This document shows positions 1,586 to 16,991 of a DNA stretch of 20,535 nucleotides, one piece after another (position 1 is the first letter of the stretch; each line of letters opens with the position of its first letter). The translations under genes were made by a program, and so were the position numbers. A model generated the notes under the pieces. The model had not been told where the DNA came from. It searched no databases and saw only the letters and a list, made by a program, of their open reading frames with translations. Source of the DNA: a virus; IMG/VR virus record IMGVR_UViG_3300019889_000043, positions 1 to 20,535 of that record; one strand, given 5' to 3'.

Positions 1586-2232
1586 CGCGGCACCCATAGT
1601 GTTGAGAGGGCATGGCGCAGCCAGTCAGGCGCGAAGGATGGCGATCCGGCGTTGGCCTCGCGATCCTCGTAATACATGGCGGTGATCCTGAGAACGAGAT
1701 CGCGCAGACCAGCTGGCGTCTCTTCCGGTGTCGCATAGCCGGTGATGAGTTCGACGACAATGCTGGTATTGGCAGGCGCAGCACCCTGCCGTGTCAGCAC
1801 GCCGCCAGACGGGACCAGCCACGATTGCTGCACGCCCATTTCCGGTGAGACCGCGCCGACGATCTGATACATCGGCGAGATGTCGTCGCCGCCCTGAAGA
1901 ACCCGAAACGAACTGATTCCGCCCAGTTGCGACGGCGAGGACGGCACATGCCAGCCGCCTGAACAACCGGCGCAGCGGTTCGATGCTTCCGCCGTCAGAC
2001 GACCGGAGAACGATGCAAAATTTGCATATTCGCCAGCTGCCGGCCGCCAGACATAATTTGCCTGACAAACCGCCAGACCCGTCTCGCGTTCGATCAACGC
2101 CATGGCGCGGTCGGTGGCATCCTTGATGTAGATATCGTCGTCGATGAAATCGACACGGCAGTGCAGCTTGACCAGTGTCAGCCACTGGGCGGCGACGGTT
2201 GCTCCGTTGCGTTTGATCAGCTGGACGCTCAT
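1579..2232 (-). CDS. head-tail connector protein, HK97 gp6-like, 217 aa
   Basis: The N-terminal half carries the usual layout of phage head-tail connectors of the HK97 gp6 / SPP1 gp15 type: a helix near LTLVKLHCRVD (about residues 18-28), then the DDDIYIKDATDRAMALIERETG helix pair (about residues 31-52) and a Trp-containing strand. The C-terminal portion has the characteristic LRDLVLRITAMYYEDRE helix. These proteins form the ring under the portal that joins head to tail. The protein is longer than typical members because of a Cys/Gly-rich insertion with AGCSGGWHVP at about residues 88-97. The ATG overlaps the TGA of the fibre gene (ATGA), indicating coupling. The function is inferred from family pattern and position after the portal. 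Confidence 0.8.
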   Translation of the reverse strand: MSVQLIKRNGATVAAQWLTLVKLHCRVDFIDDDIYIKDATDRAMALIERETGLAVCQANYVWRPAAGEYANFASFSGRLTAEASNRCAGCSGGWHVPSSPSQLGGISSFRVLQGGDDISPMYQIVGAVSPEMGVQQSWLVPSGGVLTRQGAAPANTSIVVELITGYATPEETPAGLRDLVLRITAMYYEDREANAGSPSFAPDWLRHALSTLWVPRC

Positions 2233-4199
2233 TTCTTCTTCGATCCCTGAAGTTCCTTGACCGCCAGTTCCACAGCTTTCGACACGGCATTATCAATCTG
2301 TTCGGTGATGAACGCGCGGGCGTCGCCGCGCAGCGCCGCCATCAACGGCAGGACACTGCATTCGAAGACCTCGCCGTCCTCACGGATGAAGGCGATGCGG
2401 TCGTCGTCAATCGCCCGCACCTCTATAAATGGCAGCGCCGCTTCCCCCTGCGCTCCTTGTGGCCCCTCGATACCCTTGCCGGAAAGACCCTGCGGCCCCG
2501 GTTCACCCGGCCTGCCGCGCTGACCGCGTGCTGCGATCAGCTGCCACAATGGAGATTCGCCTGGAACCGACGTGTTGTTATTGGCCTTGGACTGGAACGT
2601 GCCGCCATCCTTGATAACGCAATCGTTGCGGCGATAGGCCTTGGCCGGATCATGGGTGCCGAGATGATCCCATGGAACGGCATCCTGACCGCGTTCGCCG
2701 TCCTTGCCGTCCTTGCCGTCCTTGCCAGCCGGACCAGGTCCGCCAGTTGCTCCGTCCTTGCCGTCTTGGCCAGCCTCACCCTGCGGACCCTGCTCGCCGT
2801 CCTTGATCTCGGCCAGCTTCTCGGCGACCTCGGCGCGCATATCGTCGAGCCACTTTTCGGCGTCGATATGGAACTCGCGCAGCTTGACGCTGAATTCCTT
2901 GAAGTCGCGCTTGATGTCCGCCATGGCGAACTCGGTGATGTCATGCACCGTGGCGTCGATACTGGCTGTCGCCTCGTCGAACAGGGCAACGAGATCGGCC
3001 CTCAAATCATGGATGCTCTTGCCGACATCGGCTTCCTCGACCTTGGCTGCCAGCTTCGTTTCGAGATCGCACAGGGCGTCGTCGATTTTGCCAAGCCGGT
3101 CGTCGCGGTCATTGAAGGCGGCGGCGTTCTCTTCGAGGCTCTGGAAAACATCCTCATCGATTTTCTTCAGGCGCTTTTCGATGCCATCGATCGCTCTGGC
3201 CATTTCGCCGCGCATGACTTCGAACGCTGTAACACTGGTTTCCTTGTCCAGTTTTTCTTCCAGCGCCTTTGCGAAGTCCGGCTGCATCTCGGCAACCATC
3301 TCGCCGATGCCTGACAATGTCTTGCGGAATTCTTCGAGCGCGTCGAGGGCTTCCTGTTTGACGCTGGAATGCTCTTCGCCAATGGTGAGCATGTCCCGCT
3401 CAACAGTTTCGATATGCTCTTGCAGAGACTTCAGATCGTCCGCAGTAACCTTTTCGGCGAGCGTTTTTTCGTATTCTTTCGCTCGTTCTTCGATCCTGGC
3501 ATCGATGGATTTCACGCTGTCGAAGATTTCACCAAAGACCCTGACGGTTTCCTCTTCACCCATCTGCTGGCGTTCGCCAGTGTCGAGCAGACTCTGCTGC
3601 ACAGCGTCGAGATGCGTGCGCAGGTCCTTGATCCGTTCGCCCATGGCTTCGAGCACAAGGGCGCTTTCGCTGCGATCAAGCTTTTCTTCCAGTCCCTTGT
3701 CGAAGACCTCTTTCATGTCGGCGATGTGGTCGCCGATATCGATCAGGTTCTGGGCGAAGGCTTCCCCAGCCTTCAGGGTTTCTTCCAGCCCTTCCTGCAG
3801 CTTGCCGACATCGGCAAGGCCAGTGTTGAGTGCGGTCAGCTGGTCCTGCAGGTCCTTGAATTGCCCGCGCACGACATCGATCGCTTGCGTCATGACGGCG
3901 TGGTCGGCCTTTGCCGCAAGTTCGTTGCCGATCTCGATGGTTTTCTCATCAAGTTCGCTGCGGACTTTTCGGGTTTCGGCCTCGAAGCCTTCCTGCAGCT
4001 GGCCGACATCGCCGATGCTGGTGCCGATGGTGTCGATGCGGTCCTGCAGTTCTTTCAGCTGGCCGCGCATCACTTCCAGTGCGGAAAGCGCGACAGCACT
4101 GTCGAACTTCTTGTCCATTTCCATGCCGAGTTCGGCACGCACCCGGCCGATTTCCTCACCGAAGACTTCAATGATCTGTTCCGGATCGACCTTCATCAT
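2229..4199 (-). CDS. coiled-coil / collagen-like fibre protein, 656 aa
   Basis: Residues 1-465 are a long coiled coil made of diverged repeats. The units begin near EVMRGQLKELQD (43), DVVRGQFKDLQD (108), EAMGERIKDLRT (184), DDLKSLQEHIET (254) and EVMRGEMARAID (327). Residues 468-506 are 13 Gly-X-Y collagen triplets, followed by a small module at about 509-556 with AYRRNDCVIKDGGTFQSK and a conserved LWQL. That pattern matches the short aromatic fold often found in phage tail or head fibres and carbohydrate-binding units. A second collagen segment (559-587, with one phase break) and a helical C terminus follow. The start overlaps the portal stop and the stop overlaps the connector start, so it is made from the portal-connector operon. 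A trimeric head or neck fibre is the best guess; a tail fibre is less likely from position. Confidence 0.85.
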   Translation of the reverse strand: MMKVDPEQIIEVFGEEIGRVRAELGMEMDKKFDSAVALSALEVMRGQLKELQDRIDTIGTSIGDVGQLQEGFEAETRKVRSELDEKTIEIGNELAAKADHAVMTQAIDVVRGQFKDLQDQLTALNTGLADVGKLQEGLEETLKAGEAFAQNLIDIGDHIADMKEVFDKGLEEKLDRSESALVLEAMGERIKDLRTHLDAVQQSLLDTGERQQMGEEETVRVFGEIFDSVKSIDARIEERAKEYEKTLAEKVTADDLKSLQEHIETVERDMLTIGEEHSSVKQEALDALEEFRKTLSGIGEMVAEMQPDFAKALEEKLDKETSVTAFEVMRGEMARAIDGIEKRLKKIDEDVFQSLEENAAAFNDRDDRLGKIDDALCDLETKLAAKVEEADVGKSIHDLRADLVALFDEATASIDATVHDITEFAMADIKRDFKEFSVKLREFHIDAEKWLDDMRAEVAEKLAEIKDGEQGPQGEAGQDGKDGATGGPGPAGKDGKDGKDGERGQDAVPWDHLGTHDPAKAYRRNDCVIKDGGTFQSKANNNTSVPGESPLWQLIAARGQRGRPGEPGPQGLSGKGIEGPQGAQGEAALPFIEVRAIDDDRIAFIREDGEVFECSVLPLMAALRGDARAFITEQIDNAVSKAVELAVKELQGSKKK

Positions 4200-7070: not shown

Positions 7071-9038
7071 TTACCAGGTCAGGCCGTTGATGACGGCAAC
7101 CATGCCGCCCCGACGCATCGCCCAGTCCATATCCATGAGCATGCGGATACCGATGGACGCCGTCTGCCACAGCGAACGAACCGGCGAAGCCGCCGCCCCA
7201 GCGCCATCGACGATGGGAAGCACCGTGCCAGGAACCGGAATGGCTTCCGATGCCGGATAGCTGCCGTCTTCCTCGTGGATCGTTGCGACATCGGAGATAT
7301 CGAACTCAGGCGTATCGCCAACACCGGTCGAGAAGTCCGCAAACCGCACCAAGGCCAGAGTGGTTGTGGGCACACTGGTCGAGGAGATGAACGGGAATCC
7401 GCCGATGTTGCCAGCGTTGATCTGGTCACGGTATGGATACACGCCGACCGTCGTTGCGACGAACTGCAGCTTGAAGATCATCGACGGATTGATCAGGAAC
7501 ACCAGCCGGTCAGCCGCATTGGCGGCAATGAACGGAGCGATGATTGCCTGCAAGTCCTTGTCGATGGCATTCGTGCCGCCGCCTGCTGTTGCAACGATTG
7601 GTGTGACGCCGTTCAGCAAGCCAGCCGGACGGATCGCATCGCCCGCTACCGTATCGAGCAAGGCCGCATCGATCGCCACAGCGGTATCATCGACGATGCC
7701 TTCACGGATCAGAGCCTCGATAGCCGGTGTCGAGTGCGCAGCCATCTCGCGGGTATAAGTCGAGATGACGCCCATCTTGTGCGGCACGAGGGTCACCGAC
7801 CCGAACGAACCACGACGGACAGGAATCGGCTGGCCTTCACCGACGAACGCACCGGCAAGATCGCCGGGTGCCCGACGTGCCTGGTTGCGGCGCGGCAGCT
7901 TGATCTGACCGTTGCGACCGAAGGTGAACTTCGATCCCATTGCCGACAGATCGCCGTAGACGGAAATTGCCTTGAGTGAATCCACCCAGGCATCGATACC
8001 GGTCATGACCAGTTCAGCTGCCCAGCCTGCGACGGTCGTCTGTGCAGGATTGGTAGTTGCCTTGATCACTTCGGCAACGTCGTCGCGGTCACCATAGCGC
8101 TTCATGCGGATGGCTTCGACCGGCTGGCGCAAGGCATGCGCTTCAAGGTTGCAGACAGCCATCTTGAGCAGGATATCCATCGGGCTTTCACGACCGGAAG
8201 CAGCACGGCGCTGTTCGGTCTGAACGTTCGGACGGAAAATCTGCTGGTTGGTTTGGGTGGTGCTCGCCGTGCGCATGCCGAGGTCTTTTTCGGTCGAACG
8301 CTTGCGGTCGAGGTCTTTTTCGAGCGTGGCAATCTCATCCTTGAGAGTGTCAAACTCTGTGATTTCGTCTTCCGTGAGTTCTTCGTCATCACGGTTCTTG
8401 GCATCAAGTGGTGCCTTCTTGTCGTGTGCCGCGACGAGCTTCTGCTCCAATTCGCGGATTTTCTCAGCGAGGGTCATTTTTCGCCCCTGTTTTTCGAGTG
8501 CAGGGCCGGACTTGGCGGTTTTGGTCACGTTCTGGTCGGTGGTGCCTGACTTGGCGAGGACCAGCTGGCGTGTTTCTTCACTGATGCCCATCGATCGCAT
8601 CAGCGCGTCCGCATTGGCGGGCACTGAAACGACAGAGCATTCGAGCAATTTGGATTTGAGGTAGCGGAAAGGCCCCCAGAACGGATCGCCGTCCTTGTTC
8701 ACCGGTTCCTTTTCCATCGGGATAAAACCGACGCTGCAAGCGCGAAGGATACGGGCTTCGAGCAGCTGCCGGACCTCGTCGACTCTGGCGAGTTTGCCGC
8801 CTTCGAGCAGCTTGAGCCGTCCGATCAGCTGCTTGCCGACGATCTTGACGTTCTCCCAGGTGCCGATGGGCTGCGTCTTGTCGTGCATGAACAGCGCGAC
8901 AGGGTTGAGTGCGAATTCAGTGAGGTCCCAGCCTTTGGCCACGATCACGTCGCCGACACGATCCACGGATTCGGTGGACATGACGAACTCATAAGGGTCG
9001 GTGGCAGACTGGGTGGCAGTTTTGAAGACAGGGTCCAT
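7071..9038 (-). CDS. prohead protease - scaffold - major capsid fusion protein, 655 aa
   Basis: Three functions lie in one frame. Residues about 1-150 are an HK97-type prohead protease (peptidase family S78/U35): RVGDVIVAKGW, the His motif LFMHDKTQPIGTW (His52), the Ser motif CSVGFIP (Ser102) and LLECSVVSVPANADAL. Residues 188-265 form a charged coiled coil (MTLAEKIRELEQKL), the usual delta/scaffold region. From about 290 the sequence is an HK97-fold capsid protein, with GRNGQIKLPRRNQ, AGAFVGEGQPIPVRRGSF, LDTVAGDAIRPAGLLNG and INPSMIFKLQF. Proteolytic removal of the scaffold part probably occurs near residues 265-290. The ATG at 9038 has no visible ribosome binding site, whereas ATG 188 has a strong one, so separate scaffold-capsid product is likely. 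Confidence 0.93.
   Translation of the reverse strand: MDPVFKTATQSATDPYEFVMSTESVDRVGDVIVAKGWDLTEFALNPVALFMHDKTQPIGTWENVKIVGKQLIGRLKLLEGGKLARVDEVRQLLEARILRACSVGFIPMEKEPVNKDGDPFWGPFRYLKSKLLECSVVSVPANADALMRSMGISEETRQLVLAKSGTTDQNVTKTAKSGPALEKQGRKMTLAEKIRELEQKLVAAHDKKAPLDAKNRDDEELTEDEITEFDTLKDEIATLEKDLDRKRSTEKDLGMRTASTTQTNQQIFRPNVQTEQRRAASGRESPMDILLKMAVCNLEAHALRQPVEAIRMKRYGDRDDVAEVIKATTNPAQTTVAGWAAELVMTGIDAWVDSLKAISVYGDLSAMGSKFTFGRNGQIKLPRRNQARRAPGDLAGAFVGEGQPIPVRRGSFGSVTLVPHKMGVISTYTREMAAHSTPAIEALIREGIVDDTAVAIDAALLDTVAGDAIRPAGLLNGVTPIVATAGGGTNAIDKDLQAIIAPFIAANAADRLVFLINPSMIFKLQFVATTVGVYPYRDQINAGNIGGFPFISSTSVPTTTLALVRFADFSTGVGDTPEFDISDVATIHEEDGSYPASEAIPVPGTVLPIVDGAGAAASPVRSLWQTASIGIRMLMDMDWAMRRGGMVAVINGLTW
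8475..8488 (-). promoter_or_regulatory. internal ribosome binding site and ATG for scaffold-capsid product
   Basis: On the minus strand AGGGG (8488-8484) is followed by six bases and an in-frame ATG (8477-8475), codon 188 of the fusion gene, exactly where the scaffold coiled coil begins. Translation from here would give a 468-residue scaffold-capsid protein without protease. The match to a ribosome binding site is better than at the annotated gene start. Confidence 0.6.
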
Positions 9039-9047
9039 GGGACAAGG

Positions 9048-9065
9048 CCAACGTTATTGCGTTGG
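9048..9065. promoter_or_regulatory. inverted repeat just upstream of the capsid fusion gene
   Basis: CCAACG and CGTTGG (9048-9053, 9060-9065) flank a 6-base spacer and end ten bases before the gene start. It could form an mRNA hairpin at a start that lacks a ribosome binding site, or be a protein-binding site. Confidence 0.3.
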
Positions 9066-9088
9066 TCAGTCCATTTAACTGTTTCGCG

Positions 9089-9104
9089 GTAACCTTTGGG
9101 TTAC
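9089..9104. promoter_or_regulatory. inverted repeat between HTH gene and capsid gene
   Basis: GTAACC and GGTTAC are separated by four bases. It lies nine bases after the stop of the HTH gene and is a possible operator or small hairpin. No T run follows on either strand. Confidence 0.3.
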
Positions 9105-9112
9105 GTGGGAAA

Positions 9113-9325
9113 TTATTTCACGATGGCAGGAACACCGCGCCCTTCAGCGAGCGAAAGCAGCTTGACGGCAAGGCCATAGCTCGGTGACTGCACTTCGCCG
9201 GATGCGATCCGCCACATGTGCATGCGTGAACACCCGACCGACGAGGCGATCTGGGGAAGTGTCATGCCGGTCTGTTCAAGTCCGGCGACCATTGCCTGAA
9301 ATTGTTCTTGTGTCGAAAGCTGCAT
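9113..9325 (-). CDS. small helix-turn-helix DNA-binding protein, 70 aa
   Basis: The whole protein is a compact Cro/CI-like or MerR-like DNA-binding domain. Residues about 22-43 (TLPQIASSVGCSRMHMWRIASG) read as helix, turn and recognition helix, and the remaining residues form the closing helices. It has no oligomerisation or sensor domain, so it would act as a small repressor or activator. The ATG at 9325 has only a weak site (GGAAAA) upstream. It is the first gene of the head transcription unit, preceded by a terminator and a palindromic AT-rich promoter, so it may control itself and the capsid gene downstream. Its target is not known. Confidence 0.8.
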   Translation of the reverse strand: MQLSTQEQFQAMVAGLEQTGMTLPQIASSVGCSRMHMWRIASGEVQSPSYGLAVKLLSLAEGRGVPAIVK

Positions 9326-9352
9326 GGCGCAACAATTTTCCAGTGAGAGTAT

Positions 9353-9382
9353 GTATATATACTACGAAAAGGCCGCAGACAC
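9353..9382 (-). promoter_or_regulatory. putative promoter with palindromic -10 region for the HTH/head unit
   Basis: A self-complementary GTATATATAC (9353-9362) contains TATATA as a possible -10 box. TTGGTG about 18 bases upstream on the minus strand could serve as -35, although it falls inside the terminator hairpin. The palindrome would also suit binding by a small HTH dimer. This is the most AT-rich spot nearby. Confidence 0.35.
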
Positions 9383-9401
9383 CAAATGTATGCCTGCGGC
9401 C
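9367..9401 (-). terminator. intrinsic terminator upstream of the head module
   Basis: GGCCGCAG (9394-9401 read on the minus strand) pairs with CTGCGGCC (9371-9378). Inner wobble pairs extend the stem, and TTTT follows directly on the minus strand. It separates the accessory block and the tRNA-like element from the HTH/capsid unit. Confidence 0.7.
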
Positions 9402-9472
9402 CTGTGCTTTCCTGAAGGTCTTCCAAGGGGATCATGTGCTATCCCCCAAATCGAAGCTAACACAAATTCGTT

Positions 9473-9597
9473 TGCGCGGTAGGGATTCGAACCCACGGTT
9501 GCCTCGGTATCGGGTATCCGTCCCCACCTTAGCAATCTATACGGTTAAAGCCTTACTTTTTCGGCATCACATTTTAGACCAGACTCATGAACGCGCA
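9473..9597 (-). ncRNA. degenerate tRNA-Ser-like element, 125 nt
   Basis: Read on the minus strand, the 3' part has a full tRNA T-loop (GGGTTCGAATCCC). The 7-base ends at 9597-9591 and 9479-9473 pair at six of seven positions (TGCGCG with CGCGCA). A segment resembling the D-arm of class II tRNAs (GAGTCTGGTCTAAA) follows the 5' end, and GATTGCTAA looks like an anticodon loop with GCU (Ser). However, the element is 125 nt, the anticodon stem is not complementary, the outer T-stem pairs mismatch, and no CCA follows (AACG instead). It may be a decayed or rearranged tRNA, a tRNA-like phage RNA, or a remnant of an attachment site. It is not a normal tRNA. Confidence 0.4.
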
Positions 9598-9603
9598 TGC
9601 AGT

Positions 9604-9957
9604 TTATCTTGATTTGCCTCTACGCCACGGGCTTTTTTTCTTGTGCCAAGACTGATGTCTGGGCCGACCTTCGAGGCCATCCGGTCGATTAGGGGCCATG
9701 GTCCACACACCATCTTCCGCAGCGGCCTCAAGAAAGGCAATTCTGCAAGCGCCAGCAGACAATCGACCTTCCAGTGCATCAATGCACGCCAAGCGCGCCG
9801 CGTAATGTTTCTCGCCATGGTCATCGGGCCAGTCGTTCAGAAGATGGTCCGCCAAATCGCCCACGGTCTGCAACACGCGCATCCGGCCCAGTGTCGAGGT
9901 CTGCACCGCCAGATGCTCGATGGCTATGTCTCTGAGTTTGGGTGTCGTTTCGCTCAT
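9604..9957 (-). CDS. DUF982 domain protein, 117 aa
   Basis: Residues about 27-85 match the DUF982 pattern: VLQTVGDLADHLLNDWP, HYAARLACIDALEGRLSAGACRIAFLEAA. DUF982 is a short helical domain found mainly in Rhizobiales, with no established biochemical role, and it points to a rhizobial host. The C-terminal 30 residues are strongly basic (HKKKSPWRRGKSR) and could bind nucleic acid. I chose the ATG at 9957; the frame could extend to a TTG at 10002, but that would run through the inverted repeat upstream and has no ribosome binding site. It is the last gene of the accessory block, followed by the tRNA-like element. Confidence 0.85.
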   Translation of the reverse strand: MSETTPKLRDIAIEHLAVQTSTLGRMRVLQTVGDLADHLLNDWPDDHGEKHYAARLACIDALEGRLSAGACRIAFLEAAAEDGVWTMAPNRPDGLEGRPRHQSWHKKKSPWRRGKSR

Positions 9958-9975
9958 GAACTCTAATATTGGAGA

Positions 9976-9997
9976 TGATTCGCCAAGAGTCGAATCA
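9976..9997. promoter_or_regulatory. perfect 7-bp inverted repeat upstream of the DUF982 gene
   Basis: TGATTCG and CGAATCA are separated by eight bases in the 67-base gap between two minus-strand genes. No T run follows, so an operator fits better than a terminator. AATATT lies a few bases downstream as a possible -10. Confidence 0.35.
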
Positions 9998-10024
9998 CCC
10001 AAAGGGGTTAGATTGTCGCATCCT

Positions 10025-10429
10025 TTAGCGTTTGATCGCGCCAGTGCGCAGCTGCATGAGTAAGTCCTGATAGGCTTCCGGATCGCGGACTTTCAGATGA
10101 CGCAACTGCATCGAGCGCTGGTCAGGCAGCATCTCTTCTGGCGGCAACCCTTTGCCGCCGCCCTTCTCCGGTTCGGTGTCGAGATATTGCTGCATCCAGA
10201 ATTTGATCTTGTCAGCCGCTTCCTGCTTGGTTTCCTCTGTCCCGTTCATATCGCCACTAAAGAACTTAACGTCCGAACCAAGCTGGAAGCTGTACGCCCA
10301 CCTGCCCTTCTGCGGCCCCTGTTCTTCGCGCAGGATGCGCCCGACAATGATGCCCTGGTACTTGGCACAGAAGTCATAGGCGAGTTCATCGCCGCCGATC
10401 ACGGTTCTTATCCATTCGAGTTCAATCAA
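10025..10429 (-). CDS. hypothetical phage protein, 134 aa (TTG start)
   Basis: The TTG at 10429 overlaps the stop of the preceding gene and has GGAG seven bases upstream, so it is a convincing non-ATG start. Residues 1-75 look like a small beta-rich module with a Trp, a GRI and a GRWAYSF strand, followed by a KQEAADKIKFWMQQYL helix. This arrangement is common in uncharacterised phage proteins. The C-terminal part contains a Gly/Lys linker (KGGGKG) and a helix rich in Arg and Gln. No enzyme motif is visible. Confidence 0.75.
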   Translation of the reverse strand: MIELEWIRTVIGGDELAYDFCAKYQGIIVGRILREEQGPQKGRWAYSFQLGSDVKFFSGDMNGTEETKQEAADKIKFWMQQYLDTEPEKGGGKGLPPEEMLPDQRSMQLRHLKVRDPEAYQDLLMQLRTGAIKR

Positions 10430-10616
10430 CGCCTATCTCCATCAGCTGGGCATAAACCTCGTCCGGCGTTCCCTGCAGGATTGTATGACGGCCATCAAGC
10501 AATGCCTCGGCATCTGCAATACAATCCCAATAGCTGTGCTGTGGGCCGACCCGCACGGCGACTTCGCGCCACTTCAGGATTTGCATGCGCAAGGCCAGTC
10601 GTTCGTTTCTGTTCAC
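10422..10616 (-). CDS. hypothetical small protein, 64 aa (GTG start)
   Basis: The GTG at 10616 overlaps the TGA of the preceding gene (GTGA) and has GGAGGA upstream at good spacing, so I prefer it to any start further up. The product is helical: NERLALRMQILKWREVAVRVG, then ADAEALLDG and DEVYAQLMEIG. No known domain is recognised. It is tightly coupled on both sides. Confidence 0.7.
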   Translation of the reverse strand: MNRNERLALRMQILKWREVAVRVGPQHSYWDCIADAEALLDGRHTILQGTPDEVYAQLMEIGVD

Positions 10617-11089
10617 CGCTTCCTCCTCGGTCTGCGATAGCTGTCGTGGTTGCCACGGCACAAGGTCAGGGCCTCGTCGTCGGGCGATACGCCATTGGCA
10701 ATCGCCATGGCGCGATAGTCGTCATAGAGCGGGAAGCCGCCATCGGTGATCGGGCGCTTGATGTCGCCGCGCATGGCGGCAATGCGGACACCGAGATTGT
10801 TGTCGGCGTTCTGCAGCAGGAAACTGGCACAGGTCGAAGGCTTTTCCGACCCGTGCATGTGACAGGCGAAGGTGTTGAACGAGGCGTCATAGGCCGTGTT
10901 GGCGGAAATGCGGAACGCCTCGGCTGGGAAGGTGCCTGTCGGCAAGTCCTTGCGCCATGGGCACTGCTCGCAAGGCTCGCGCCGGTTCCAGCCCTTGCCG
11001 TCGCTGGCGGACAGGAGGGAAACGACAGCATGTTCGCCGTCGCCACAATGGCGGATGTTTTCAACGCGGGTGGATCGTTTTCGTCTCAT
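10613..11089 (-). CDS. DUF6283-like cysteine-rich protein, 158 aa
   Basis: The sequence holds the spaced Cys/His signature I associate with the DUF6283 family: CEQCPWRKD (Cys40, Cys43), FACHMHG (Cys76, His77) and STCASFLL (Cys87), with the connecting FPAEAFRISANTAYD helix. Such proteins are small metal-binding proteins of unknown function found in phages and bacteria; these four ligands could hold zinc or an iron-sulphur centre. I chose the ATG at 11089 because it forms an ATGA overlap with the preceding stop and has AAGGA eight bases upstream. The C terminus is basic (YRRPRRKR). Confidence 0.8.
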   Translation of the reverse strand: MRRKRSTRVENIRHCGDGEHAVVSLLSASDGKGWNRREPCEQCPWRKDLPTGTFPAEAFRISANTAYDASFNTFACHMHGSEKPSTCASFLLQNADNNLGVRIAAMRGDIKRPITDGGFPLYDDYRAMAIANGVSPDDEALTLCRGNHDSYRRPRRKR

Positions 11090-11364
11090 CAATCGGTTCC
11101 TTGTCCTTTCTGGAAATACGGGCGGGTGAAATCCCGTTCTACTTGCACAGTGGTGAAGCCACGGAAGATCATGATTCCCTGTATGAAGCCGAGCCAACGG
11201 TTCGCTTTCCCCTCGTCAGTCATGGTTCTGAGTTCCGACAACATCCAGCGAAGGTGAACAAGATGGGTTCCTGGCACTGGTATGCACTCTGCTTTGTGGG
11301 CAAACTTTGCCAGCATGGTGTCGTAGCGATCTATGATGTCTTGGTGGATGACGCCCACTTGCAT
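11089..11364 (-). CDS. conserved hypothetical phage protein, 91 aa
   Basis: The pattern HLVHLRWMLSEL, then KANRWLGFIQGIM and a C-terminal RDFTRPYF, recurs in small hypothetical proteins of many phages, where HLxWM and NRWLGFxQG are the conserved parts. The function is unknown to me. The ATG at 11364 is preceded by CAAGGAACCA, the recurrent leader motif of this window, and by a 9-bp hairpin. Its stop overlaps the next start. No membrane segment is present. Confidence 0.8.
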   Translation of the reverse strand: MQVGVIHQDIIDRYDTMLAKFAHKAECIPVPGTHLVHLRWMLSELRTMTDEGKANRWLGFIQGIMIFRGFTTVQVERDFTRPYFQKGQGTD

Positions 11365-11370
11365 GGTTGG

Positions 11371-11424
11371 TGGTTCCTTGTTCAGTTGTCGCCTGAGAGG
11401 GGGTTCATCGAGCAAAACCCCCTC
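11371..11424 (-). promoter_or_regulatory. leader with 9-bp hairpin and CAAGGAACCA site
   Basis: A perfect GAGGGGGTT/AACCCCCTC stem (11397-11405 with 11416-11424, 10-base loop) lies just before the ribosome binding motif at 11371-11380. Without a T run it is more likely an mRNA structure affecting translation or stability than a terminator. Confidence 0.4.
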
Positions 11425-11448
11425 CCGCGCTGGATACCAGCAGCCCTT

Positions 11449-11514
11449 TCAGGCGAAGGGCGACGACCCACCCTTCTGCTGCCACTGCCGGATGCCCGAC
11501 CAGTCAGCGGCCAT
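11449..11514 (-). CDS. possible 21-aa mini-protein, uncertain
   Basis: A short frame starting inside the end of the preceding gene encodes a Trp/Gln-containing peptide (MAADWSGIRQWQQKGG and five more). The composition looks protein-like, but no ribosome binding site is visible. It fills part of an otherwise empty 139-base gap. It may be a truncated gene or chance. Confidence 0.2.
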   Translation of the reverse strand: MAADWSGIRQWQQKGGSSPFA

Positions 11515-11755
11515 TTCGTTCGTCGGCACTATCGGCACCGACGATCCTGTCCATTTCGTCGGACCAAAGGTCTATCTCGTTTTTTACCGCCAGCATGCCC
11601 CGCTGGTTCGCCAGCCCATGCAAGTGCAAAGCGATGTGCCCCGCGCCGGACAGGAAGGCATCGCGAATCGGGACAATGACACGCGGGTCCGACTCGTTGG
11701 GGAACGTGATGACAAGGTATTCCTCGAACAGGGCTTCCAGTGTTTCGTGGTTCAT
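11504..11755 (-). CDS. hypothetical protein, 83 aa
   Basis: This is an acidic soluble protein with predicted helices (HETLEALFEEYLVI and AVKNEIDLWSDEMDRIVG) around a central segment with HIALHLHG. The ATG overlaps the preceding TGA (ATGA), with GAGGT upstream. No family motif is recognised. It lies between the YkgJ-like gene and the gene at 11364, in the same operon. Confidence 0.7.
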   Translation of the reverse strand: MNHETLEALFEEYLVITFPNESDPRVIVPIRDAFLSGAGHIALHLHGLANQRGMLAVKNEIDLWSDEMDRIVGADSADERNGR

Positions 11756-12309
11756 TGGTCTACCTCTATCTCGACTGCCATACCGATCTTCCGCATCTTG
11801 TCGAGGGTAGAGTGTTCCTCGGTGCGCTGGCTTGAATGTTCCTCATGCCACTGGTGATCGGCAGAAAGGGATGGGGCGAAGATAACAAAGCCCTCCGATG
11901 AATTATAGCGGATCATTGCCGCCATGCCATGTTCCTGCGCGCGGCGCTCGATGTAGGCGCGCAGCTGCGGGTCACGGTGCGCATCGGGAAAGCGCGGGTC
12001 CACCCAGATTTGCACCACAGGCAGATCAATGGATTGCTTGCCCTCGTACTGCATGGTGATGTAGTCCGGCATGATGTCGATGACGTAGTGCGACCGATCC
12101 GGCCTCGACAGGTCGGCGGTGTCGTCATTGACCAGCCAGCGGCAGTTCCAGACCATGCAGCTGAACGGGCGCTTGGTATAGATGCTGCAGCCCTTGCCCG
12201 TCTTCTGATACTGGCAGCGGGTGTTTGCCAGTTTGTTGATTTCCTTGGTCGGCAGCAGCTTGCAGCACAGCTGGCAGTCGCCGCACTGGCGTCGTGCAGT
12301 CTCGCTCAT
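11752..12309 (-). CDS. YkgJ-like cysteine-cluster protein, 185 aa
   Basis: The N terminus has the dense cysteine pattern of the YkgJ / UPF0153 metal-binding family: CGDCQLCC (Cys9, 12, 15, 16), RCQYQ (Cys32), GCSIYTKRPFSC (Cys41, 51) and Cys56. Members are thought to bind zinc or an Fe-S cluster, but no reaction is established. The remaining 125 residues (a MPDYITMQYEGKQ strand and a DPQLRAYIERRAQEHG helix) are typical of phage-borne members. The start overlaps the preceding stop as ATGA, and a GAGG lies ten bases upstream. The role in the phage is unknown. Confidence 0.8.
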   Translation of the reverse strand: MSETARRQCGDCQLCCKLLPTKEINKLANTRCQYQKTGKGCSIYTKRPFSCMVWNCRWLVNDDTADLSRPDRSHYVIDIMPDYITMQYEGKQSIDLPVVQIWVDPRFPDAHRDPQLRAYIERRAQEHGMAAMIRYNSSEGFVIFAPSLSADHQWHEEHSSQRTEEHSTLDKMRKIGMAVEIEVDQ

Positions 12310-12809
12310 TCCGCTGCGTCCTCGTGTGGCTGTTGCACCGCATTGCCTACCTTTGGTTTGTATTGCGTCAGTCGGTCGGTAAATCCGAACGGGAAAAGGC
12401 GACCAGGCTCGATGATGACAAAGAGATGATACTGATTGGCGGTGTCAACAAGGCGGCTTTCTGCCGGATAGAGTTCGACGGCCTCGCATTCCTTGCCCAC
12501 CAGTTCGTTCTTGATGCGCTGGAAGTCCCGAAAGCGTTCTTCGCCGATAGGTGCGCGATCCCGCCGTTTGATCGACAGCCATTTCATCTTCGGCCAGCCA
12601 GCAACCTCGTCTGCGTCGCGCACATCGACCTGATAGCGGCTGTTGATGACGATATTGGACAGTCTGCGCTCATTCTCCATGGTGGCGCGCAGCTGCTCGA
12701 TGGGCACGTTCAAGTTTTTGGCCATATCGCGCAGATGTGCATCGGAAATCGGTAGCGGTTGAGCGGGCGCGAAAGGCGTCCACGACGGTAGCTTGTTCTT
12801 AGACTGCAT
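12306..12809 (-). CDS. DUF7694-like protein, 167 aa
   Basis: The central block WLSIKRRDRAPIGEERF, DFQRIKNELVGKE and ELYPAESRLVDTANQYHL is a conserved phage-protein signature that I believe corresponds to DUF7694. The function is unknown. The N-terminal third contains a helix (LRDMAKNLNVPIEQLRATME) that could be a small DNA- or protein-binding segment. The ATG at 12809 has GAGGA upstream and overlaps the preceding gene by 11 bases. The stop forms ATGA with the YkgJ-like gene. I am sure the block is conserved but less sure of the family number. Confidence 0.75.
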   Translation of the reverse strand: MQSKNKLPSWTPFAPAQPLPISDAHLRDMAKNLNVPIEQLRATMENERRLSNIVINSRYQVDVRDADEVAGWPKMKWLSIKRRDRAPIGEERFRDFQRIKNELVGKECEAVELYPAESRLVDTANQYHLFVIIEPGRLFPFGFTDRLTQYKPKVGNAVQQPHEDAAE

Positions 12810-13011
12810 CGGCAGCGTCCTCGATAGTGATGCGGATGCGCCGACCGATTAGACGGCGCAGATCATCATGTTTTTTGCCTTCATTCCAAGACATCAACCG
12901 GATGAAGAGGTCAGAATCGTCACTGGAAAATTCGATAGTCGCGGACTGTCCGCCGTCTTCCAGCTGTATGTTGCTGGCATCAATTTCGGCGATGAAGGTT
13001 GCGTCTCTCAT
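12799..13011 (-). CDS. hypothetical protein, 70 aa
   Basis: This is a small acidic protein with alternating strands (ATFIAEIDASNIQLEDGG, ATIEFSSDDSDLFIRLM) and a basic GRRIRITIEDA strand near the C terminus, probably a compact beta fold. The ATG at 13011 has GAGGA seven bases before it and overlaps the TGA that ends the shifted zinc-ribbon frame. No family is recognised. Confidence 0.7.
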   Translation of the reverse strand: MRDATFIAEIDASNIQLEDGGQSATIEFSSDDSDLFIRLMSWNEGKKHDDLRRLIGRRIRITIEDAADAV

Positions 13012-13140
13012 GACTGGTCCTCGAACTCGTGGCAGTGGCCGCAGTAGCGGTGCTTGATATCAAATCGGGTGGTAGCTTTTCATGCCGCAGCGCGGACAGG
13101 TGTTTCCTGCACCGGAGCCTTGGCCTTGCGGGTTGGCCAC
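13008..13140 (-). pseudogene. zinc-ribbon mini-gene interrupted by ATT-TGA, restored by a +1 shift
   Basis: Reading from a possible GTG at 13140, one frame encodes TCPRCGMKSYHPI and stops at TGA (13062-13060). The +1 frame continues DIKHRYCGHCHEFEDQS and stops at 13008, forming ATGA with the next gene. Joined, the two halves make the familiar small phage zinc ribbon with Cys-x2-Cys, SYHP-DI, RYC and a second Cys-x2-Cys, 43 residues in all. The junction ATT TGA T resembles the prfB recoding site CTT TGA C, where the P-site tRNA slips to TTT. It may be programmed +1 frameshifting or a plain frameshift mutation. The start is uncertain, as no ribosome binding site is visible and it overlaps the preceding gene. 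Confidence 0.5.
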
Positions 13141-13730
13141 TGGTTGAACAGGGTGCCAAGCTTCGACGTGTTGACGATCTGCATGGTCGTCCAGCGTTCG
13201 ACGCTGCCATCGGCCTTGGTGACGGTCAGGGTCGAGTAACCCCAGACGTGCGAACCGGTCAGCGAGGCGTCTACGACTTCGCCGATCTTGTTGACGATCT
13301 TCATGACGAAGAGGTCGTACTGATCGCCTGCGCCCTTGATCATCTCGGCGACGAAGGCTTCGACGTTCTCTGGCTTGTGAGCGCGGATATTCGGCTCGCC
13401 CCAACGACGGGTTGCTGCCGTGTAGGTCGTCAGGCGGGTGGCCAGATTGTGGCGCGCGTCCATCGTCGCGTTGCCGCGCGGGAATGCGGTGTCGAGGTCC
13501 ATGCCGTGTTCTTCCATCTTGGCGAGGTACTTGCCAGCCAGTGCGCGAGCATCCTGCTCGGCGCGGGCGAAGGCGTCCTGCTTCTGCGGCAGAACAGCGG
13601 CGGTGATCGGGTGGGCAGTGTCGAGGTAGGCGACGGTCTTAGGCATGTGGTGGTCCCCGTTGGGTGGTGGTGGGGGGGCCGCAGCCCCGTTGGTTAAGGA
13701 CGGCTGTTCGTCCTTTGGCTTGTCGCTCAT
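13080..13730 (-). CDS. conserved hypothetical protein, 216 aa
   Basis: Residues 1-28 include a Pro/Ala linker (NGAAAPPPPPNG). The main domain follows, with helices DAFARAEQDARALAGKYLAK and KPENVEAFVAEMIKGAG, then a strand-rich C-terminal part (HVWGYSTLTVTKADG, TTMQIVNTSKLG) and a basic tail. I recognise no named family or catalytic motif. The ATG at 13730 forms ATGA with the preceding stop and has AAGGA seven bases upstream. A second good start exists at 13646 (GGGGA then ACCACCAC then ATG, residue 29), which would omit the linker. The linker DNA resembles the intergenic leaders found elsewhere in this window. Confidence 0.75.
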   Translation of the reverse strand: MSDKPKDEQPSLTNGAAAPPPPPNGDHHMPKTVAYLDTAHPITAAVLPQKQDAFARAEQDARALAGKYLAKMEEHGMDLDTAFPRGNATMDARHNLATRLTTYTAATRRWGEPNIRAHKPENVEAFVAEMIKGAGDQYDLFVMKIVNKIGEVVDASLTGSHVWGYSTLTVTKADGSVERWTTMQIVNTSKLGTLFNQWPTRKAKAPVQETPVRAAA

Positions 13731-13969
13731 AGCCTGATCCTTTCCAGCCGCGCGAATACCTCTTTGGTCAGCGGCTCATGTTTGTCATCGTCGTAGGTGA
13801 TCACCCATCGGCGGCTGGGATAAAACAGCACTGAGACAAAGCAGAGTCTGCCGTCATCAAAGAAAGCACCGTAGCCGTATCCATCCTGCTTCTCGGCCTT
13901 TTTGACAGCCACGCGGACTTCATCCGGCAGCGCGTCAATCGGCACGGCAATGGCCCCGAAGGTTGTCAT
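13727..13969 (-). CDS. hypothetical protein, 80 aa
   Basis: This is a small mixed protein with a strand-rich centre (GYGYGAFFDDGRLCFVSVLFY, SRRWVITYDDD) and a terminal helix (KEVFARLERIR). It shows no membrane segment and no known motif. The ATG at 13969 overlaps the preceding TGA. It is flanked by coupled genes of unknown role. Confidence 0.7.
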   Translation of the reverse strand: MTTFGAIAVPIDALPDEVRVAVKKAEKQDGYGYGAFFDDGRLCFVSVLFYPSRRWVITYDDDKHEPLTKEVFARLERIRL

Positions 13970-14163
13970 GCGTCGTCGCCTATCAGTGAGCGCCGCACGT
14001 CGATCAGCTGCTCGAAGGTTTCGCCGCGCTTGCCGGTCAACGGCTTGTAGTAATAGCCGCTGCGGTCCTTTTCGATGAAGATCGCGCCGACAGCCTTGCC
14101 TTCGAGCCGCACGATTTCAACGCATGGCTTGGCACTGGCAGATGGTTTTTCGAACGTGATCAT
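13966..14163 (-). CDS. hypothetical protein, 65 aa
   Basis: I start this at the ATG at 14163, which forms ATGA with the preceding stop and has AAGG nine bases upstream; longer readings lie under the preceding gene. The product has strands CVEIVRLEG and VGAIFIEKDRSGYYYKPL and a C-terminal helix (TFEQLIDVRRSLIG). The fold is probably small alpha/beta. No family is recognised. Confidence 0.65.
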   Translation of the reverse strand: MITFEKPSASAKPCVEIVRLEGKAVGAIFIEKDRSGYYYKPLTGKRGETFEQLIDVRRSLIGDDA

Positions 14164-14423
14164 TGCCGTTGCCTTCTGTCTGGATGGCCGTGGTCGCCGA
14201 ACAATTCCTGTTCGGAAATGGGGATCATTTCTTGGACTGCCTTGAAGTGCATGGTGAGCATCGCCTTGCGGACCATAGGGGAATGACCGGCCAGCCAGAG
14301 CGACAGCAGTTCGCACAGGACAGCGCCCTGAACACTCGGATCGCGTCTGGCCAGTAGCGGCTTGATCTCTTCGACGATGGCAGCAACGTCGAGGGCCATT
14401 TCTTTTTCAATGGAGGTTGGCAT
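14160..14423 (-). CDS. hypothetical helical protein, 87 aa
   Basis: The sequence is almost entirely helical: DVAAIVEEIKPLLARRDPSVQGAVLCELLSLW and RKAMLTMHFKAVQEMIPI, and the C terminus is basic (HPDRRQRQ). The ATG at 14423 is preceded by AAAGGACCGACCAA, a diverged form of the recurrent AAGGAACCA leader. The pattern resembles small rhizobial proteins of unknown function, but no family name is secure. Confidence 0.7.
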   Translation of the reverse strand: MPTSIEKEMALDVAAIVEEIKPLLARRDPSVQGAVLCELLSLWLAGHSPMVRKAMLTMHFKAVQEMIPISEQELFGDHGHPDRRQRQ

Positions 14424-14619
14424 TTGGTCGGTCCTTTAATTCCCCTTCACCACCTAATACGTGCCGTTCGAGATTGCTGATGCGGGCATGCTGCACCATG
14501 TTGATGTGGTCTTGTTCGCGGTACGCTTTCTGCTGCAGACGGCCCTGATAGAAAATCAGGGCGACCGTCGCACAGTTGGCCACGAGAACGAACACGTTGA
14601 CATAGAAGCTAAAGGGCAT
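14407..14619 (-). CDS. single-span membrane protein, 70 aa
   Basis: Residues about 4-25 form a membrane span (SFYVNVFVLVANCATVALIFY), followed by a basic, polar, helical tail (GRLQQKAYREQD, ARISNLERHVLG), so the tail is probably cytoplasmic. The ATG at 14619 has GAGGAAGGA upstream, one of the strongest sites in the window. The gene overlaps the next start by 17 bases and the preceding gene by 11. It is one of a run of small envelope proteins in this block; the function is unknown. Confidence 0.7.
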   Translation of the reverse strand: MPFSFYVNVFVLVANCATVALIFYQGRLQQKAYREQDHINMVQHARISNLERHVLGGEGELKDRPNANLH

Positions 14620-14770
14620 TGGTGTTTCCTTCCTCTGGCCAGCGCTTTAAGGGCACGAGCCGCAGATTGTCTTCGGCACAAAGAGGGCAATAGATTTCCG
14701 TCTCTTCCGCCAAGCGCCCGCATTCCTTGTCATCGAATCCGCAGATCACGCATTCGAAATGATACTTCAT
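14609..14770 (-). CDS. small zinc-ribbon protein, 53 aa
   Basis: Two Cys-x2-Cys pairs (FECVICG, Cys7/Cys10; YCPLCAE, Cys28/Cys31) with the intervening DDKEC make a rubredoxin-like or zinc-ribbon unit. The ATG at 14770 forms ATGA with the preceding stop, and AGGTCAGGA lies upstream. Such tiny proteins may act as nucleic-acid or protein adaptors; nothing here says which. Confidence 0.7.
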   Translation of the reverse strand: MKYHFECVICGFDDKECGRLAEETEIYCPLCAEDNLRLVPLKRWPEEGNTNAL

Positions 14771-14868
14771 CTGTCCTGACCTTTTTGCAGTGCAACACCG
14801 ACGAACAGGGTGAGTGCCAGCAGCGCAACGCCGAGCAGGATCATGCTCCAAAACAGGATTTGATACAT
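14767..14868 (-). CDS. 33-aa membrane peptide
   Basis: The product is one hydrophobic span (ILFWSMILLGVALLALTLFV) with a short polar tail (ALQKGQDR). The ATG at 14868 overlaps the preceding TGA (TGATG), and GGGAGG lies just upstream, so translation is well supported despite the size. Its role is unknown; it could modify a host membrane protein or assist lysis. Confidence 0.65.
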   Translation of the reverse strand: MYQILFWSMILLGVALLALTLFVGVALQKGQDR

Positions 14869-15128
14869 CACATCCTCCCGTCGATGACTTGGACTTCCTC
14901 GCGCGTCGTCAGCTTGACGATGCGGATCAAGCGCTGCTGGGCGGCGGCGATCTGCGATGCTTGCTCGATGATGAACGGCAGACGCTTTTCGTCGGCTGCG
15001 AGTAGCGGCATCCACATGCCATTAGGTCCCAGCGTGGCGCAGACGCCTTCGGTGCCATCGTCATCGACCGACAGCGCCATCCAGACGCTGTCGATGCTGA
15101 GTAGAGTGTTGATTTGCGGTCCGCTCAT
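14868..15128 (-). CDS. hypothetical protein, 86 aa
   Basis: The start at 15128 forms ATGA with the preceding stop; a start further up would lie inside the previous gene. The ribosome binding site is weak, so translation may depend on coupling. The protein has an N-terminal strand region (SVWMALSVDDDGTEGVCATLG, GMWMPLL) and a C-terminal helical part (IIEQASQIAAAQQRLIRIVKL). No family is recognised. Confidence 0.65.
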   Translation of the reverse strand: MSGPQINTLLSIDSVWMALSVDDDGTEGVCATLGPNGMWMPLLAADEKRLPFIIEQASQIAAAQQRLIRIVKLTTREEVQVIDGRM

Positions 15129-15322
15129 CGAATATGCCCAACGATAATGGCGAAGCACATAAAGCAGAATACGACGAAAATTCCCGCCAAACGACCAGCC
15201 AGACGCCAGTCCATGTTCCAGTCTTTACTGTGTTTTTCCATCTCTTCCGCCAGAATTGCTGACAGGTCTGGCCCTTGTACGCCCTTGGGACCTTGCAAGC
15301 CCTTTTGCTCGTCGCGGCTCAA
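15125..15322 (-). CDS. short collagen-like membrane protein, 65 aa (TTG start)
   Basis: The frame begins with a TTG at 15322 that overlaps the preceding TGA. The N terminus has collagen-type triplets (GLQGPKGVQGP), a short helix follows, and the C terminus is a single membrane span (GIFVVFCFMCFAIIVGHI), so the Gly-rich end probably lies in the cytoplasm. A later ATG at codon 28 (15241) would remove the triplets, so the start is not certain. The Gly-x-Pro run links it in style to the big fibre gene at 2229-4199, but it is too short for a stable collagen helix. Confidence 0.55.
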   Translation of the reverse strand: MSRDEQKGLQGPKGVQGPDLSAILAEEMEKHSKDWNMDWRLAGRLAGIFVVFCFMCFAIIVGHIR

Positions 15323-15738
15323 TTTAGTTTCGCAATCTTGACGTTGTTTGTGTGCGAGACGATGTTCACCATCATCTGGTCTTTGGTAAAGGTGAATTCG
15401 AGCCAGCCATCCTTTTCGAGTGCTGTCTTGATCGTTTCCTTTTCGATGACATCGACGCCGTCATCCCCGCCGAAGGTGGCGCGCTTGATCTCATACCAGC
15501 CACGGGTTTTCTCTGGATTGCACTCCTCGGCATAGATGACGACTGGCTTTTCGCCGTCCGGAAAAGCGCCGTTGTGCATCAGGTAGACGCCCTGATCGCC
15601 GACGATCCAGAAACCCTGTTCCGGATTTTTGTCGCCGTCCATATGCTGCACCAAGTTCGGCCTCGTGCCGTTCGGCCAGTGCTTCTCGGCGTCTGCCCAG
15701 AGCAGCTTCAGGTTCTCGTTTGTGAAGGTGAGTTTCAT
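15319..15738 (-). CDS. DUF3085 protein, 139 aa
   Basis: The region QGFWIVGDQGVYLMHNG, then VVIYAEECNPEK, WYEIKRATFGGDDGVDV (about residues 41-98) is the hallmark of the DUF3085 family, small proteins of unknown function found on plasmids and phages. The N terminus (LTFTNENLKLLWADAEKHW) fits as well. The ATG at 15738 is preceded by CAAGGAACCA, seven bases from the ATG, directly after the previous gene. No catalytic motif is apparent. Confidence 0.85.
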   Translation of the reverse strand: MKLTFTNENLKLLWADAEKHWPNGTRPNLVQHMDGDKNPEQGFWIVGDQGVYLMHNGAFPDGEKPVVIYAEECNPEKTRGWYEIKRATFGGDDGVDVIEKETIKTALEKDGWLEFTFTKDQMMVNIVSHTNNVKIAKLN

Positions 15739-15753
15739 TTGTGGTTCCTTGTT

Positions 15754-15963
15754 TTAGTATTTCAGAAAGCCTTGCCGGTTGCATTCCAGAAGTTCATCGC
15801 GCTCTGCATCTGTCCGATAGTTGGCCTTCAAAGTCTCGCATCGCTCCCGATGCTGCCACGCACGGACAATCTCGGCATCCTGATGAGCCTCATACTCACG
15901 GACGAAAAAGTAGTAAGTGGTGGCGATGATGCAGATACATGCAGCTGCGATGAGGATTTTCAT
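15754..15963 (-). CDS. membrane-anchored protein, 69 aa
   Basis: An N-terminal hydrophobic segment (KILIAAACICIIATTYYFF) is followed by a charged domain of about 50 residues with two cysteines (RCETLKANYR, LLECNRQG). It is either membrane anchored with a periplasmic domain or weakly exported. The ATG at 15963 forms ATGA with the stop of the lipoprotein gene before it. A single-span protein paired with a lipoprotein resembles the i-spanin/o-spanin arrangement of phage lysis, but the order, small size and absence of an endolysin leave this speculative. Confidence 0.7.
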   Translation of the reverse strand: MKILIAAACICIIATTYYFFVREYEAHQDAEIVRAWQHRERCETLKANYRTDAERDELLECNRQGFLKY

Positions 15964-16277
15964 CGTGCCGGTATCCCGCCTTTGTATGGGTACTTTGTCA
16001 ACGTCCCGTCGTTCTGGCGAAAGCCCTTGAGCCGGATGCCCTGCGCGGTAAAGCAATCACTGGCATCGTCGATCAGGTCGTTCGGTGCAATGACGCCGCC
16101 GTAGGCGATGGTTTCTTGCCTTGCGCTGTCGCGCAGCCGCATGCGGCACTGGGCCTTTGCCTGTTCGAGTTTCACCGGACTGATCTTGCCGCCAGCGAGC
16201 GGGACAAATTCTGCCTGTCCCGAAACGCAACCGGCGAGCGGCAGTAACGAGACTGCCAGTATGAGGTATCTCTTCAT
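15960..16277 (-). CDS. putative lipoprotein, 105 aa
   Basis: The N terminus is a lipoprotein signal: MKRYLILAVSLLPLAGC, with the lipobox LAGC (Cys17) as acylation site. The mature part of 89 residues is hydrophilic, with two further cysteines (KAQCRMRLR, SDCFTAQG), and should face the periplasm. The ATG at 16277 forms ATGA with the preceding stop and has GAGGA upstream. It could be the outer-membrane half of a spanin pair or an exclusion lipoprotein; the sequence does not decide. Confidence 0.8.
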   Translation of the reverse strand: MKRYLILAVSLLPLAGCVSGQAEFVPLAGGKISPVKLEQAKAQCRMRLRDSARQETIAYGGVIAPNDLIDDASDCFTAQGIRLKGFRQNDGTLTKYPYKGGIPAR

Positions 16278-16438
16278 CGTGATTCCTCAGAAACGCGGGG
16301 CATGGCGCAAACGGCGACCAGCGCGAAGATGCCGAAGAGAAGACCGAGGATGAGCCAGCCGATAAAGCTACGGCCCTTTGAGGTGGCGATCACGGCGGCG
16401 GTAATGCCGCACATGATCCAGAGTATTGCGAGTTCCAT
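16274..16438 (-). CDS. small two-span membrane protein, 54 aa
   Basis: I find this short gene by direct reading. It encodes MELAILWIMCGITAAVIATSKGRSFIGWLILGLLFG and 18 more residues. Two hydrophobic spans (about residues 3-18 and 26-45) flank the basic turn SKGRS. This hairpin with a WLxLGLLFG second span is familiar from small bacterial and phage membrane proteins of the superinfection-immunity type, but I give no name. The ATG at 16438 has CAAGGAACCA nine bases upstream, and the stop forms ATGA with the lipoprotein gene. Confidence 0.75.
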   Translation of the reverse strand: MELAILWIMCGITAAVIATSKGRSFIGWLILGLLFGIFALVAVCAMPRVSEESR

Positions 16439-16443
16439 TGCGT

Positions 16444-16492
16444 TGGTTCCTTGATTGGTGGGGGCCGAAGCCCCGCTGGTTCCCCTTGCTGT
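16444..16492 (-). promoter_or_regulatory. leader with UUCG hairpin and CAAGGAACCA site
   Basis: In the mRNA, GGGGC-UUCG-GCCCC (16474-16461) is a very stable cUUCGg tetraloop hairpin seven bases before the recurrent CAAGGAACCA (16453-16444). It occupies the whole gap between two genes. The outer ends match those of the 81-bp repeats further right. Confidence 0.5.
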
Positions 16493-16891
16493 TTACTGGC
16501 AGGACGCCGGATTGCGCACGCAAATCTCGGCGGTCTTCTTGCCATTCGGATTGCGGACGACAACCTTCTTGCCGTTGACGACCGCGACTTTGGTTGCCTC
16601 GACCGGCATCCACTTCCAGCCTTGCATGGTCATGCACTGCTTCTTGACGTAGGCGGTGCGGATGGCGTTGCCGATGGCACTGCCGATGGCGGCACCGGCC
16701 ACGAAGGATGCCGATCCCATGGCGAACGAACCTTGCTGCGCGCCCATGGCCATCAGGTTGCACTGTGCGTCGGCCATTTCATAGGTTGGACCAACACCGA
16801 TTTTCGTCCACTGGTTTTGCGCCATGGATGCTGTTGTTCCCATTGCAAGGATAACTGCTACTGCCCCGATTTTTGTGATGTGCTTGTTCAT
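16493..16891 (-). CDS. secreted protein with glycine-zipper segment, 132 aa
   Basis: A classical signal peptide (MNKHITKIGAVAVILAMGTTASMA, cleavage near residue 24) leads to a mature protein with a Gly/Ala/Ser stretch (MGSASFVAGAAIGSAIGNAI, about residues 58-77) that looks like a glycine-zipper membrane insertion. A basic domain with two cysteines follows (KKQCMTMQGW, AEICVRNPASC). It should be periplasmic or outer-membrane associated. CAAGGAACCA lies 14 bases before the ATG, within the second 81-bp repeat. Possible roles are envelope modification or exclusion of other phages, without direct evidence. Confidence 0.75.
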   Translation of the reverse strand: MNKHITKIGAVAVILAMGTTASMAQNQWTKIGVGPTYEMADAQCNLMAMGAQQGSFAMGSASFVAGAAIGSAIGNAIRTAYVKKQCMTMQGWKWMPVEATKVAVVNGKKVVVRNPNGKKTAEICVRNPASCQ

Positions 16892-16901
16892 TTTGTTTCT
16901 G

Positions 16902-16982
16902 TGGTTCCTTGAGCGTCATCTTCAGGCTCGCCATGCTCAGGACGAACGACGGGGTTGGTTCCCCGTTTCGACTTTTATTTGG
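16902..16982. repeat. 81-bp intergenic repeat, copy A
   Basis: It shares a 24-base identical start with copy B, then CGCCATGCTC and a GACGGGGTTGG-TCCCCGTTTCGACTTTT end. It contains an ACGGGG/CCCCGT stem (16949-16966), which on the plus strand is followed by TTCGACTTTT, and the CAAGGAACCA motif at its 5' edge. It fills the gap between two secreted-protein genes. Confidence 0.75.
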
Positions 16983-16991
16983 TTCCCCGTT

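Follow-up and report, generated by a model that had tools for sequence, protein, structure and literature searches.

The virus record IMGVR_UViG_3300019889_000043 of IMG/VR (positions 1 to 20,535, a stretch of 20,535 nucleotides called the window below) carries on its minus strand a gene in which a prohead protease, a delta scaffold and a major capsid protein (MCP) are fused in one frame of 655 amino acids (7071..9038). Comparison of this gene with its relatives points to a second, nested translation start at codon 188. This ATG (8475..8477) heads the scaffold coiled coil, six bases downstream of the Shine-Dalgarno (SD) motif AGGGG (8484..8488), and a start codon occupies the same place in all 206 fused homologues collected in two sets (203 ATG and 3 GTG). 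Judged from sequence, we consider the nested start to be real and functional with a probability of about 0.85. Very probably two products are made from the gene, the full-length fusion and a stand-alone delta-MCP of 468 residues (7071..8477, minus strand), which is predicted to be the major one.

Conservation of the probable internal start

For ATG 188 the SD is predicted to pair with the 16S tail at -5.7 kcal/mol, and for the outer ATG the value is -0.9 kcal/mol; the other genes of the window mostly have starts with -5 to -6.6 kcal/mol. Among the in-frame start codons of the gene ATG 188 has the strongest SD, followed by a GTG inside the protease domain (-5.6 kcal/mol). The preliminary description of the window had placed AGGGG six bases before ATG 188 at the start of the scaffold helix, with an inner product of 468 residues, and had seen no ribosome binding site at the outer ATG; the motif, the coordinates and the length all check, and the pairing energies agree.

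Homologues came from profile searches (80 loci from genomes and 80 from viruses) and from records of phages and plasmids, among them PAJU2, SP-016, RHph_X2_26 and JLK-2012. We aligned 148 fused frames, with 81 representatives below 70% identity, and picked the junction candidate by its position and not by SD strength. A start codon heads the coiled coil in every one of the 148 frames (145 ATG and three non-ATG codons, all of them GTG). The linker between the protease and the coiled coil is free to vary in length and sequence, and the start codon that follows it is constant. The mean SD energy was -6.2 kcal/mol at the junction and -1.8 kcal/mol over the 1057 in-frame ATGs elsewhere (p = 1e-35). 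When the junction residues were recoded with synonymous codons, the value was -4.5 kcal/mol (p = 2e-9 for the difference), and the other ATGs showed no comparable excess over recoding. The SD core was found in all three codon phases at a spacing of 6-10 nucleotides, so the encoded amino acids differ and the nucleotide motif stays. A purine peak lies at -13 to -8 relative to the junction start, and the minimum of predicted mRNA structure within 180 nucleotides on either side falls at the junction itself. At other conserved methionine columns 0-25% of the sites were at or below -5 kcal/mol, compared with 60% at the junction.

A validation set of 58 further fused homologues, which had played no part in forming the idea, gave the same picture. 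All 58 have an ATG at the junction, with a mean SD energy of -6.1 kcal/mol, and a value of -5 kcal/mol or lower is reached by 66% of the junctions and 4.7% of the other ATGs. The nearest relative of the window gene, in the metagenomic virus contig L001 (82% identity), is identical to it in DNA over codons 181-192, which span the SD motif and the ATG; this identity over 12 codons contrasts with the differing linker residues nearby. The window gene has, in sum, an in-frame internal start with an SD downstream of its protease domain that is kept in its relatives. The preliminary description had proposed the site from the window alone and had named its absence from homologues as evidence against it; the alignment bears the proposal out, and it is conservation that lifts the internal site above chance.

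Domain organisation of the fused gene

From ATG 9038 (9036..9038) the frame runs through 655 open codons to 7071 on the minus strand. A different outer start was considered and rejected, since an in-frame stop lies five codons upstream and no alternative start would retain the whole protease domain. The protease is recognised as Peptidase_S78 (PF04586) at residues 21-147 (8598..8978; E = 2e-8, 34.9 bits against a cut-off of 21). The putative catalytic residues His52 (8883..8885) and Ser102 (8733..8735) do not vary in either of two alignments, of 60 and of 55 sequences, as in an HK97-type prohead protease, and the motifs that the preliminary description had picked out at these two positions are thus borne out. 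The capsid part matches Phage_capsid (PF05065) above the cut-off at residues 360-570 (7329..7961; E = 6e-15, 55.9 bits). TIGR01554, a model of stand-alone MCPs, also scores above its cut-off (72 bits), and its alignment begins at residue 195, which falls on model position 2. The match to PHROG 617 is full-length (residues 9-655 against positions 21-626 of 626, E = 2e-85). The NCBIfam model of prohead protease/MCP fusions, NF045541, matched only the N-terminal part and stayed below its curated cut-off (44.5 bits against 525).

An AlphaFold2 model built from 55 sequences has a confident protease domain at residues 1-147, a short helix, a disordered linker at residues 163-186 (8481..8552; predicted local distance difference test, pLDDT, below 50) and a confident helix from residue 190. 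The linker is hypervariable in length and sequence among the relatives. The internal methionine sits at the end of this hinge, two residues before the helix. The delta domain that follows is a coiled coil of helices 190-216 and 223-259 (8262..8471; pLDDT above 90 for most of it), and Foldseek matches the C-terminal part to the capsids of HK97 and of gene transfer agents and to other HK97-fold capsids. Pfam, TIGR01554, PHROG 617 and AlphaFold2 agree with the earlier view of one frame holding a protease, a scaffold coiled coil and an HK97 capsid.

Relatives with separate protease and capsid genes

In 16 relatives the protease and the capsid are encoded by split genes. Their separate MCP gene begins at the same residue as the nested frame of the window, mostly behind an SD, and the protease stop lies anywhere from 4 nucleotides inside to 104 nucleotides before the MCP start (-4 to +104 nucleotides). 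A tree built from the capsid part shows at least 10 changes between the fused and the split state, of which at least six are forced by well-supported branches. All 27 rows of the deep clade that contains the window are fused, and this clade has members at identities near 40%. The simplest reading of this pattern would be a constant capsid cistron with a constant ribosome site, fusion being the loss of a stop codon in front of them.

Truncated homologues were also seen on plasmids. On a Sinorhizobium terangae plasmid (L008:2955-3680) there is a relic of the capsid gene that ends in the delta domain, with frames resembling transposases behind it; the relic retains an undamaged internal SD-ATG (gggggatcccATG). 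Two homologues on plasmids of Sinorhizobium and Cupriavidus (L007:2788-3882 and L010:2899-3891) match the window protein in the capsid part only, from residue 318-326, and have a short N-terminus; no protease was found in the fetched stretch. These are possibly scaffold-free capsids of satellites, or relics.

The outer start and the region upstream

Just upstream of the outer start lies a hairpin, CCAACG-CAATAA-CGTTGG (9048..9065, minus strand), which the preliminary description had noted as a possible mRNA structure. Its stem is a perfect one of 6 base pairs, and its place is kept in the clade with differing sequence: in the window and in eight loci (L001, L013, L014, L093, L095, L370, L371 and L373) a hairpin stands 1-9 nucleotides before the outer ATG, with energy z-scores of -1.4 to -5.8. 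The outer SD in this clade is weak or lies partly inside the hairpin. Where the hairpin is missing, in more distant members (L375, L376, L379, L380 and L398), the outer SDs are plain, at -5.2 to -7.6 kcal/mol. Weak outer initiation is well supported as a prediction for the window phage and its near kin, and not for the whole family.

A second type of hairpin was observed outside the window clade, in L037, L070, L003 and L077. It lies 19-23 nucleotides before the outer start, upstream of the outer SD; one example is AGGCCCGC-loop-GCGGGCCT.

Directly upstream of the fused gene is a small gene for a helix-turn-helix (HTH) regulator (9113..9325, minus strand), which matches a PHROG of transcriptional repressors and an HTH Pfam family. 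L001 and L008 have similar HTH open reading frames ahead of their capsid gene. In the window a palindrome, GTAACCCAAAGGTTAC (9089..9104, not assigned to a strand), of the form GTAAC-N6-GTTAC, lies in the gap between the HTH gene and the fused gene; it is kept in L001, L008, L013, L014 and L093 with varying middle bases. It is possible that this palindrome is an operator bound by the HTH protein and controlling the head operon.

Head genes are usually contiguous, unlike the layout here, where about 9 kb of small genes (9113-18149) separates the terminase large subunit from the capsid gene; part of this block recurs with the HTH gene in L001 and L008. The portal gene is immediately followed by a frame for a repetitive coiled-coil protein of 656 residues with collagen-like triplets (2229-4199), whose matches to tail-fibre families are confined to the collagen part.

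Border start signals in other fusion families

Two further families of fused genes were gathered, ClpP-type/Phage_capsid_4 fusions (L206 and L209-L288) and S78-like/Phage_capsid_4 fusions (L204 and L289-L368). In both of them an unbiased scan for a conserved start codon with an SD gave its strongest signal at the protease/scaffold border. The SD-ATG is present there in 27 of 27 ClpP-type and 7 of 8 S78-like representatives (below 90% identity).

The group of L204 (L289-L368) has two SD-ATG sites near the scaffold start, about 24-30 codons apart, in 7/8 and 6/8 representatives, and these genes may perhaps give a third product.

Alternative explanations

Several observations weigh against a nested start, or against its wider reach. 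Taken alone, the SD at ATG 188 is moderate: it ranks 27 of 660 codons in the window gene, with P = 0.09 under synonymous shuffling. This is only mildly unusual, and the weight must therefore come from the relatives. There the SD at the junction is weak (above -4 kcal/mol) in about a fifth of the homologues, and the p-values given above overstate independence, as the homologues share descent; fairer guides are the 81 representatives, all below 70% identity, and the 58 homologues added later. The outer SD is fair across the family (best-case median -4.8 kcal/mol), and the inner one is the stronger in 61%. Strict control of the ratio is therefore no family rule, and the contrast of a weak outer with a strong inner start that the preliminary description had drawn stands for the window clade, with its hairpin and poor SD, and fails family-wide. 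The ClpP-type site lies in conserved protein, which weakens it as an independent test; as the additional sets are also less diverse, we would take their border signal as supporting rather than decisive.

It is conceivable that only the full-length protein is made and that the protease cuts itself near residue 188, the conserved methionine and the basic and glycine residues around it forming a cleavage motif. Lysine, arginine, glycine and glutamate are indeed frequent in the residues before the methionine. The conserved signal, however, is one of nucleotides, as seen in the three SD phases, the synonymous excess, the GTG substitutes, the purine peak and the dip in mRNA structure, and the same codon is a true gene start in the split relatives. 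We consider a self-cleaving polyprotein of this kind unlikely, and on the SD phases and the synonymous excess we reject the idea that a cleavage motif in the protein alone accounts for the conserved methionine. The site might also be a remnant, by now unused, of a recent joining of two genes, a history for which the existence of split relatives and the interconversion of fused and split states could be cited. Against a recent origin stands the deep clade, fused throughout at near 40% identity, in which the start is retained next to a linker that has changed completely, and the junction codons shared by the window and L001 amid differing linker residues do not suit a disused site. That it is such a vestige seems to us highly improbable.

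A short product could equally be read from a separate internal transcript, so that promoter strength rather than competition between ribosomes would set the ratio. Such an mRNA would be served by the same start signals, and herpesvirus UL26.5 is made in this way. In tailed phages a single long late transcript usually covers the head genes, and we found no promoter-like site in 8300-9400 in a scan that covered sigma-70-type patterns only. An internal transcript is thus a doubtful source of the short product, and a nested start on the message of the fused gene remains our preferred reading.

Relation to known head genes

The closest precedent for a nested start is the C/Nu3 gene of phage lambda, in which a protease gene has a nested in-frame scaffold start; the I/Z gene of phage Mu is similar. 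As is predicted here, an in-frame start downstream of the protease domain gives an abundant product without protease. The nested product of lambda and Mu, however, contains only scaffold, and their capsid protein has a gene of its own, whereas the nested frame of the window runs on through the capsid domain and its product would be scaffold and capsid together. The C protease of lambda is also ClpP-like, and that of the window is S78. In HK97 the same domains are found in the same order in gp4 (protease) and gp5 (delta-capsid), which match the split relatives, but these are unfused and form two ordinary cistrons.

Effantin et al. are said to have described in 2010 a tripartite capsid gene in Gifsy-2 with protease, scaffold and capsid in one frame. 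ClpP-capsid fusions are known from Paracoccus (PMC6536676). Both share the order of domains with the window gene, and homologues of that architecture have the border SD-ATG; they differ in having a ClpP-like protease and a capsid of the Phage_capsid_4 family, the window protease being S78. Close to the window gene is ORF003 of the Pseudomonas phage PAJU2 (PHROG 617), the same S78-delta-capsid fusion and a full-length homologue at about 26%, which has AGGAGG before its own internal ATG. The PAJU2 capsid is cited in PMC8306868 as an autocatalytically cleaved polyprotein, and it is described as such without a nested start in the accessible literature. Fusion of protease and capsid was thus already known, as the preliminary description had said. 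Our search of the openly accessible literature turned up no account of a nested start in such fusions, and an earlier description outside that literature is possible; as far as we have searched, the nested start appears to be new, as a variant of the lambda C/Nu3 principle.

Proposed mechanism and implications

Initiation at ATG 9038 would give the 655-residue protease-delta-capsid protein, and ribosomes binding at AGGGG would start at ATG 8477 and make the 468-residue delta-capsid, which corresponds to a normal HK97-type capsid precursor. The two proteins share their delta and capsid domains and may co-assemble, which would bring a limited number of protease copies into the procapsid; at maturation the protease would remove the delta domains and itself. 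In the window phage and its near relatives the hairpin and poor SD would hold the outer start weak and favour the plain MCP. A low ratio of protease to capsid is a plausible and reasonable expectation from these sequence features, stronger for the window clade than for the family. On balance we favour the broader view that the protease-capsid fusion genes of tailed phages are generally two-product genes: at least three families would keep a start at the border, the stop in front of it would be lost and gained often, and in the window clade the hairpin, perhaps with the HTH operator, would throttle the dose of protease.

Fused genes of this kind pose a puzzle of stoichiometry, as a protease on every capsid subunit would mean hundreds of copies filling the procapsid. 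A universal nested start, if true, would answer this puzzle, and a large group of phage genes now annotated as single polyproteins would need a corrected description. The origin and the reversal of fusions would be explained as well, since the loss of the protease stop is cheap when the capsid ribosome site is kept.
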